Source of the DNA: Thalassotalea agarivorans
Lineage (GTDB): Bacteria > Pseudomonadota > Gammaproteobacteria > Enterobacterales > Alteromonadaceae
Direction: 5' to 3'
NCBI RefSeq assembly: GCF_030295955.1
Contig: NZ_AP027363.1
Span: forward strand, 1,736,001 to 1,800,000
Length of the DNA stretch: 64,000 nucleotides
Under the pieces are notes generated by a model. The model searched no databases. It had not been told where the DNA came from and saw nothing but the letters and a program-made list of their open reading frames with translations. Positions 8,881 to 11,123 of the stretch are shown here, piece after piece. Position 1 is the first letter of the stretch. The number at the start of each line of letters is the position of its first letter. Made by a program: the position numbers and the translations under genes.

Positions 8881-9564
8881 TTACGCGCTTACTTGTTGTA
8901 TCTTGTTTTCTATATTTTTGCGCGACGCTGCGATATGGCGTCGCATGAGAATTTCGGCAAGCTCACCGTCACGATCTGCAATCGCTTGCACTATAGCGGC
9001 ATGTTCGGTAAATGCTTTACTTGCACGCGGACTATTCATACCAAACTGGCAACGGTACATGCGAATAACGTGATAAAGTTGTCCAAGAAGTAGCTCAGTT
9101 AATTGAATATTGTGAGCGCCTTGAATAACACGATAATGGAAATCAAGATCGCCCTCTTCTTGGTAATAACCGACACCGTCTTTTAAATCTTGCTTTTCGC
9201 CATGTGCTTTCAACATGTTTTGCATGTCGACAATCTCTTCATCTGACATGTTTTGTGCCGCTAGGCGACATGCCATACCTTCAAGCGCTTCTCTCACCAG
9301 ATAAATGTCGAGTAAATGTTCGACAGAACAATCTATGACTCTAGCGCCAACGTTTGGTTTTTTTTCAATAAGATGGCACTTTTCTAGTCTAGATAAGGCT
9401 TCACGCAGTGTTGCGCGAGATACGTCATATTTTTTAGCCAGTTCTGGCTCACTAATTTTGGTACCTGCGGCGATATTTCCTTCAACGATATCGGACTGAA
9501 GTGTAGTAAAAATCTTATCTGCTGTTGTAACAATAGGTTGTTGTGTAGGATTGAGTAGAGGCAT
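8881..9564 (-). CDS. GntR/FadR-type regulator of the prp operon
   Basis: An N-terminal winged helix (about residues 18-80; [23 protein letters not shown] is the recognition region) is followed by a helical FCD domain with the metal-type histidines of that family ([24 protein letters not shown]). I choose the ATG at 9562-9564 (MPLLNPTQQ); a longer reading would start at a TTG that lies inside the operator palindrome. It leads the prp operon, so it probably represses the genes and itself until a cycle intermediate such as methylcitrate binds. The ligand is inferred from context. Confidence 0.88.
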
Positions 9565-9568
9565 TAAG

Positions 9569-9580
9569 ATTGTCGACAAT
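9569..9580. promoter_or_regulatory. Operator palindrome 1, downstream of the prp promoter
   Basis: ATTGTCGACAAT is a perfect 12-bp palindrome. It lies between the likely transcription start and the GntR start codon, so a bound dimer would block the polymerase. An identical copy lies at 9631-9642. Its size and TTGTC/GACAA arms suit a GntR-FCD dimer. Confidence 0.75.
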
Positions 9581-9630: not shown

Positions 9631-9642
9631 ATTGTCGACAAT
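9631..9642. promoter_or_regulatory. Operator palindrome 2, upstream of the prp promoter
   Basis: The second exact copy of ATTGTCGACAAT, 62 bp from the first (six helical turns at about 10.4 bp per turn), just upstream of the -35 box. The phasing would allow two dimers on the same DNA face and perhaps looping; that is inference. Confidence 0.72.
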
Positions 9643-9694
9643 TGCAATATTCTGCTTAGATCATGTTACTTTTGCCTGCTTAGCTGTAGATAAC

Positions 9695-9723
9695 TTGTGC
9701 AAAAGCCGTTTAAAACTTATACA
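9695..9723 (+). promoter_or_regulatory. Candidate promoter for plus-strand small RNA
   Basis: TTGTGC (9695-9700), 17 bases, TATACA (9718-9723) on the plus strand. No plus-strand gene follows until 19953, but a strong terminator lies 250 bases downstream at 9942-9976, which suggests a short non-coding transcript. Confidence 0.4.
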
Positions 9724-9729
9724 TAAGCT

Positions 9730-9976
9730 GTTAAGTAGTACGGCAAAGCAAACAAGATTTTATCGAATTTATGTGTTAATTCAGGTGGATAGGATTTTTT
9801 AAAAAATAAACTAGCAAAGTGCAAAGATTACACTACACTTAAAAGTATTAAAGTATTTAGATGTTCATCTAGTCGTAATACTTTCGAGAGATTTAATGAC
9901 AGAATTAGCGCACGGCTCAACCCCTTTGAGCCTTTTCCCTGAGCCCGGAACTGGATTTGTTCTGGGCTATTTTTTT
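9730..9976 (+). ncRNA. Candidate small RNA with three hairpins, unknown family
   Basis: In the 435-bp gap between the prp regulator and tatD, the plus strand shows three stem-loops in a row. The first pairs AAAGTATT (9850-9857) with AATACTTT (9877-9884) and has an inner TAGATG/CATCTA stem; a second copy of AAAGTATT sits just upstream. The second has GGCTCAA pairing with TTGAGCC (9914-9932). The third is a terminator. Both flanking genes are on the minus strand, so the terminator must serve something plus-stranded. No convincing coding frame is present: a 34-codon frame from 9896 runs through the terminator. The 5' end is uncertain. I do not recognise an Rfam family. Confidence 0.5.
9942..9976 (+). 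terminator. Rho-independent terminator of the candidate small RNA
   Basis: AGCCCGGAAC (9942-9951) pairs over ten positions, with one G-U pair, with GTTCTGGGCT (9959-9968), and ATTTTTTT follows. Strong and clearly plus-stranded. Confidence 0.85.
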
Positions 9977-10013
9977 GTGCAAAAGAAATTTATGCAGTAA
10001 AGATCAACACGCC

Positions 10014-10784
10014 CTAGGAAATGTTAAATAAACGTTTGAAATTCGCTTTGGTAATTTGTGCTATATGTTCAACCGATTGTCCGCGTACACTGGCGATAAA
10101 TCTTGCTACATCGGCAACATAAGCGGGCTGATTCTGCTTGCCACGATGTGGTACGGGCGCTAAATAAGGTGAATCAGTTTCGATGAGTAAACGATCATCG
10201 GGTATCTTCTTTGCAACATCGCGCAATGCATCGGCATTTTTAAAGGTAACAATGCCTGACAATGAAATATAAAAACCCATTGCTATTGCCTGCTCTGCCA
10301 TTTCCCATGTTTCGGTAAAACAGTGCAGTACACCGCCTGCTTGTTGAGCACCCTCTTCTCGCATAATATCCAAGGTATCTTGCTGTGCATCTCGGGTATG
10401 GATAATCAGTGGCTTGTTTAGTTTGTTAGCAACACGAATATGTTGTCTAAATGCGTCTCTTTGTAATTGAGCGGTTTCTGGCGCGTAATGATAGTCTAGT
10501 CCGGTTTCACCAACAGCAACTACTCGTTCATTAGATGCTAGTTCGCATAAAGTATCTTCATCTGTGACATCCTCTTGGTTAAGTGGATGCACGCCACAAC
10601 TGATCCAAACGTTACTATAAGGCTCAGTGACCTGCGCCATTTTTGGAAATTCTTTTAGCGTAACACTTACGCAAAGCATACCTTCAACATTGGCATCCTT
10701 TGCATTGGCTAGCACTGTATCTAGCCCATTTTCATATTCAGATAATTTGAGTCTGTCTAAATGACAGTGAGAATCTATAAACAC
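10014..10784 (-). CDS. tatD: TatD-family metal-dependent DNase (YcfH type)
   Basis: A 256-residue TIM-barrel hydrolase. The metal ligands are visible: IDSHCHLD at residues 3-10, GETGLDYHY near 97, H in IIHTRDA near 128, CFTE near 155, and ETDSPYLAP near 203. YcfH-type TatD proteins are 3'-5' exonucleases of DNA quality control. It is the last gene of the fab-tmk-holB superoperon, 12 bp after pilZ; the same order holds in E. coli (holB-ycfH). The precise paralogue is judged from position. Confidence 0.92.
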   Translation of the reverse strand: MFIDSHCHLDRLKLSEYENGLDTVLANAKDANVEGMLCVSVTLKEFPKMAQVTEPYSNVWISCGVHPLNQEDVTDEDTLCELASNERVVAVGETGLDYHYAPETAQLQRDAFRQHIRVANKLNKPLIIHTRDAQQDTLDIMREEGAQQAGGVLHCFTETWEMAEQAIAMGFYISLSGIVTFKNADALRDVAKKIPDDRLLIETDSPYLAPVPHRGKQNQPAYVADVARFIASVRGQSVEHIAQITKANFKRLFNIS

Positions 10785-10796
10785 TACTATCTCTAT

Positions 10797-11123
10797 TTAC
10801 ATAGTCATCGTAGGCTCAGAGGAATTAAGCATACGAGCAATTGATTTTTCAATGGTATTGCGCACGTCGTTTTTATCTTCAACAAACGCTATACCTATGC
10901 CCGCTGGTGTACCACTTTGTGCGCCTGGCGGCGTTAACCAGCATATTTTGCCGGCAATTGTATGTTCAATTGCTTCGTTAGGCAAATGTACTTTAAGTGT
11001 TACCTCTTCACCAAGTTCAAAACGTTCACCTGTTTTGAAAAATAGTCCACCTTGTTTTAAAAATGGCATATATGCTTGATACAAGTCTCTTTCAGTTGCA
11101 AATTGCATATAGATGTCTTGCAA
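10797..11123 (-). CDS. pilZ: PilZ-domain protein
   Basis: A 108-residue single-domain PilZ protein, sitting between holB and tatD as in Pseudomonas and Shewanella, where PilZ is needed for type IV pilus assembly. The core strands EVTLKVHLP and AGKICWLTPPGAQSGTPAG are visible, but the N-terminal RxxxR that binds cyclic-di-GMP is not, as in the founding PilZ. The start is the TTG at 11121-11123: GAGGAG lies seven bases upstream, whereas the next ATG is 21 bases away, and family members start with the same MQD. Confidence 0.85.
   Translation of the reverse strand: MQDIYMQFATERDLYQAYMPFLKQGGLFFKTGERFELGEEVTLKVHLPNEAIEHTIAGKICWLTPPGAQSGTPAGIGIAFVEDKNDVRNTIEKSIARMLNSSEPTMTM

Follow-up and report, generated by a model that had tools for sequence, protein, structure and literature searches.

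An SdsR homologue with a conserved upstream repeat array in Thalassotalea agarivorans

The sdsR locus and its neighbours

The window analysed here is a 64-kb stretch of DNA, positions 1,736,001-1,800,000 of the 3.35-Mb single-contig genome of Thalassotalea agarivorans. Around positions 9695-9976 it carries, on the plus strand and in 5' to 3' order, a series of 11-bp direct repeats, a sigma-S-type promoter and the gene for a small RNA, sdsR. As originally predicted, both flanking genes lie on the opposite strand: gntR, encoding a GntR/FCD regulator of the prp cluster (8881-9579, minus strand; Pfam GntR and FCD), and tatD, the convergent neighbour of sdsR (10014-10784, minus strand; Pfam TatD_DNase). 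We fetched 90 loci of the family, the window genome's own included, of which 83 fit the core pattern of the RNA and were oriented. Convergence of sdsR with tatD, present in 37 of these 83 loci, is the commonest conserved neighbour arrangement found. A prp-type gntR lies upstream of sdsR in 11 of the 83 loci, and at least four different gene families occupy this position across genomes. Co-regulation with the propionate regulator, which had been proposed for the small RNA, is therefore not a feature of SdsR; the sigma-S-like promoter described below is kept where gntR or the prp cluster is not adjacent.

The best-matching relatives of the window's gntR come from Colwellia and Thalassotalea. Two identical palindromes, ATTGTCGACAAT, probably serve the GntR regulator as operators; one sits at the gntR start (9569-9580) and the other upstream of it (9631-9642). 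A TTG start of gntR at 9579 falls inside one of the palindromes, and the ATG at 9564 is the likelier start.

Identification of the small RNA as SdsR

Across the 64-kb window, cmscan returned three Rfam matches over the curated cut-offs. The original prediction had described an unknown, structured small RNA and suggested a comparison with Rfam as a check. In the whole-window scan, plus-strand positions 9880-9975 match SdsR_RyeB (RF00111) with 60.6 bits (cut-off 38; E = 1.1e-8), and the match spans the full model, positions 1-100. The RNA thus belongs to a known family, while its description as structured and independently terminated is borne out. Its largest reading frame is at most 34 aa, which agrees with the predicted lack of a good frame. 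SdsR/RyeB is present as a single copy in the genome. Of the control genomes, E. coli alone gave a match, and it carries the reference SdsR. Among the family genomes sampled, 103 of 119 have an SdsR match, which is over the cut-off in 97; a wider class-level sampling found SdsR in 2 of 274 genomes, a figure obtained with strict filters and from mostly distant families, which carries little weight on distribution. The genome also encodes sigma-S (rpoS match, 458 bits) and Hfq (hfq match, 99 bits), both over cut-off. We regard it as almost certain that the 9695-9976 locus is sdsR and specifies a homologue of SdsR/RyeB, a sigma-S-transcribed, Hfq-bound and mRNA-pairing RNA. SdsR is a well-known stress and starvation small RNA in many related bacteria, and finding a homologue here is routine and within reach of Rfam annotation.

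The window's sdsR has the same core and layout as that of E. coli. SdsR of E. coli and Salmonella shares with it the TTAGCGCACGGCTC-loop-GAGCC core, the pyrimidine stretch, the terminator hairpin with a U tail and a sigma-S-like -10. In contrast, the 5' segment in the window is different and longer (~60 nt ahead of the core), and positions 9845-9904 do not align to the enterobacterial 5' part. The flanks differ as well, being yebY and pphA in E. coli and Salmonella but gntR and tatD in the window.

The functional transcript might instead come from the minus strand, as an antisense RNA that opposes SdsR and is transcribed from a promoter of its own or arises by tatD read-through. In E. coli such a role belongs to RyeA/SraC, the antisense partner of SdsR, and the covariance model of this RNA (RF00101) matches the opposite strand of the window at 9979-9808 with 54.8 bits. 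However, since the RyeA model and SdsR overlap in antisense, this match follows from the SdsR match. On the minus strand, the stretch that separates tatD from sdsR (9977-10013) yielded no terminator, and read-through from tatD could therefore yield an RNA that covers sdsR in antisense. E. coli ryeA has a sigma-70 promoter just downstream of sdsR (PMC6610125), whereas a consensus scan of the minus strand at 9976-10956, which a weak promoter could escape, found no sigma-70-like promoter. We consider it unlikely that the functional transcript is a RyeA/SraC-like RNA.

Conserved core and terminator, variable 5' part

Returning to SdsR on the plus strand, the elements common to the aligned relatives are the TTAGCGCACGGCTC-loop-GAGCC core, the pyrimidine stretch and the terminator. 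TAGCGCA, GGCTC and GAGCC are invariant in 41 aligned sequences, the window's included, and TAGCGCA-C-GGCTC...GAGCC forms a near-invariant block. The conserved TTAGCGCACGGCT segment of this alignment (9905-9917), single-stranded up to the hairpin, is a putative seed for pairing with mRNAs. The core hairpin GGCTCAACCCCTTTGAGCC (9914-9932) has 7 bp, GGCTCAA/TTGAGCC, and is more stable than its shuffles (z = -2.41). Five of its base pairs are identical in 41/41 sequences; as they never vary, they are no evidence for or against pairing.

The 3' end, of the Hfq type, is formed by an intrinsic terminator with a U tail (9942-9976), which was identified by the terminator call, by shuffling and by the types of base pair among relatives. 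Its hairpin (9942-9968) has 10 pairs, 6 of them G-C, and is followed by ATTTTTTT. With z = -4.17 and 0/200 shuffles equally stable, it is as strong as had been claimed. When covariation was tabulated with every stem anchored at the U run, each tabulated position showed several standard pair types across the 83 loci (C-G, A-T and G-C at position 5, for example). The terminator is conserved with compensatory changes.

The 5' hairpin with the AAAGTATT arm (9850-9884) belongs to a lineage-specific part of SdsR. The AAAGTATT...AATACTTT stem can form, yet with z = -0.16 and 84/200 shuffles as stable, and the 5' segments of the relatives, 21-91 nt long, are unrelated in sequence. The doubled-arm hairpin was rejected as a functional element, being neither conserved nor more stable than chance. 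Three stems had been predicted, with paired changes among relatives as a check. Two of them, the core hairpin and the terminator, are conserved, but the doubled-arm stem is not, and paired changes appear in the terminator but not in the invariant core. The 5' part of SdsR is free to change. In sdsR of the Colwellia/Thalassotalea type (L005, L011, L025, L124, L133 and L142), the variable 5' segment contains TGCTCGC or CACTCGCTGTGA, and the window has neither.

Promoter and proposed function

A sigma-S-type -10 element, CTACACTTA, lies at 9833-9841 (hexamer TACACT, 9834-9839), at the same place as the -10 of E. coli sdsR, CTATTCTTAA. Upstream of the core, 63/83 loci carry CTANAMT and 29/83 carry CTACACT, where dinucleotide shuffles give 6.4 and 0.6, respectively; 19/83 loci have no obvious CTANAMT. 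When the loci are aligned on the -10, TTAGCA emerges 17 bp 5' of the hexamer as the majority sequence in 64 aligned loci, and the window carries the -35-like CTAGCA at this spacing (9811-9816). The -10 directly upstream of sdsR is thus accompanied by a conserved -35-like element, as in a promoter of the sigma-S type. From CTAGCA and CTACACTTA, transcription is predicted to start at about 9845 (+/- 2) and not at 9729, giving an RNA of ~131 nt (9845-9976) instead of the 150-245 nt once estimated.

The promoter named in the original prediction, TTGTGC-17-TATACA, does exist as a string at 9695-9723, but it is absent from the list of the promoter scan and is not the conserved promoter; it lies within the 11-bp repeat array. 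It is therefore highly improbable that an unrelated, unknown small RNA starts at about 9729: the hexamers and three stems are present in the sequence and a 248-nt version folds too (z = -1.90), but the Rfam match is full-length, the array accounts for the string, the shorter RNA folds better against its shuffles (z = -2.90) and relatives keep the downstream CTACACTTA instead.

E. coli sdsR is experimentally sigma-S-dependent, is transcribed in vitro chiefly by sigma-S polymerase and yields an RNA of ~100 nt (PMC6610125). In cells starved for a long time, the E. coli RNA engages in many Hfq-mediated contacts, and it helps growth recovery (PMC10954441). From E. coli and Salmonella, we infer that the SdsR studied here depends on sigma-S, binds Hfq and acts on mRNAs in antisense, a function carried over purely by homology. 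On growth arrest or stress, sigma-S RNA polymerase would start sdsR at CTAGCA-17-TACACT and transcription would stop at the terminator at 9942-9976. Hfq would bind the U tail and the A/U-rich parts of the ~131-nt SdsR, and the RNA would pair with mRNAs mainly via the conserved UUAGCGCACGGCU, thereby altering their translation or stability.

Of the known SdsR targets yeaG and tolC, yeaG was discarded as the gene is absent, with no PF06798 (yeaG/PrkA) homologue in the window genome. AGCCGTG, complementary to the SdsR seed, occurs upstream of tolC in this genome (L175:1389-1395). tolC was nevertheless rejected as a target, since a check of 29 relatives showed no conservation of the site and the pairing energy is unremarkable (z about -1.3 against 144 gene starts). 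A genome-wide search for complements of the seed with up to two mismatches gave 214 matches, compared with 153 for the reversed control, and singled out no target.

A conserved repeat array upstream of sdsR

The unexpected part of the locus is the array upstream of the promoter, which is strongly conserved. It consists of five 11-bp direct repeats, GCTGTAGATAA/CTTGTGCAAAA/GCCGTTTAAAA/CTTATACATAA/GCTGTTAAGTA, at 9683-9737, which resemble the DnaA-box-like motif TGTGNATAA. The array is one-directional and 11-bp-phased, and it ranks first both as a three-box and as a five-box array in the 64-kb window, both strands considered. The window's copy is degenerate, its best box being one mismatch from the consensus, with no exact match.

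In the family, an exact TGTGNATAA box is found 90-330 bp 5' of the core in 41/83 loci; dinucleotide shuffles give 1.0 and the opposite strand 2/83. As the box was picked after viewing these sequences, the exact-motif count is optimistic. Distances between boxes are 11, 22 and 33 bp. Besides the opposite strand, two further guards against the post-hoc choice of motif were applied. A permuted consensus with the same letters gave a mean of 15.6 loci, compared with 70, and the unselected neighbours of each best box still read C-Y-T-G-T-G-N-A-W-A-A. Within ~3.3 kb on both strands, the best three-box array falls in the upstream zone of sdsR in 69-70 of the 83 loci, compared with ~3 by chance, and its position is the same whichever gene lies upstream of sdsR. 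In 31 of 42 genera every sampled member shows this placement, and in 39 at least one member does; such genus counts correct in part for the non-independence of the relatives. An exact two-box pattern was also tried as a detector and rejected; it is rare and not found at the sdsR loci, whose arrays are built of degenerate boxes. The E. coli sdsR intergenic sequence contains no visible counterpart of the array. We found no report in the literature of such an array at sdsR, and, judged by title and abstract, none of the papers naming both SdsR and DnaA links the two.

Candidate proteins for the array

The array resembles a track on which a DNA-binding protein could dock, and a specific protein bound there would provide a second layer of control on sdsR beside sigma-S. 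Response regulators of the OmpR/PhoB family use ~11-bp direct repeats with CTGT-type half-sites, and the array could be bound by one of these and not by DnaA. In both repeat length and half-site type, the array suits this family. The array and the -10 also tend to lie in phase (period 11-11.5; by genus, p is about 0.002-0.003, with several periods tried), as expected of a regulator that touches RNA polymerase. However, the adjacent repeats show a preference for G following TGT (55%) and for AWAA, so that TGTGNATAA fits them better than the PhoB half-site CTGTCAT, and the exact boxes favour TGTGGATAA, the strong DnaA box (22/44). We hold binding by an OmpR/PhoB-family regulator to be plausible, at somewhat short of even chances.

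Read on the opposite strand, the consensus of the array is the DnaA box TTATNCACA, and 9-mers of the TTATNCACA type, in the same orientation and with 2-bp gaps, occur family-wide as the consensus, the window's copy being degenerate. The low-affinity DnaA-box arrays at E. coli oriC likewise consist of 9-mers separated by 2 bp (PMC6727663), and the sdsR arrays share with them one near-consensus box with degenerate neighbours. Unlike them, the sdsR array is located upstream of a sigma-S promoter and not at an origin, and its boxes are putative DnaA sites. Tentatively, and with some doubt, we propose that sdsR in this family carries a conserved DnaA-oligomerisation array, ~95-150 bp 5' of the -10 in the window, and that DnaA or its ATP/ADP state may tune SdsR. 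If so, DnaA control of the main stationary-phase small RNA would couple post-transcriptional stress control to the replication cycle.

That the array is a chance or compositional pattern, with phased A/T tracts giving curved DNA and no protein binding it specifically, is improbable: the repeats are degenerate and their A/T half can be followed further out than the TGTG half, but the counts of exact boxes against shuffles and the opposite strand, and those of the consensus against its permutations, stand against it.

In the whole genome, the two-box pair at sdsR ranks second of 38. The strongest TGTGNATAA two-box pair lies elsewhere (G000:C1:3276032-3276051), has one mismatch and may be an origin-related DnaA site.
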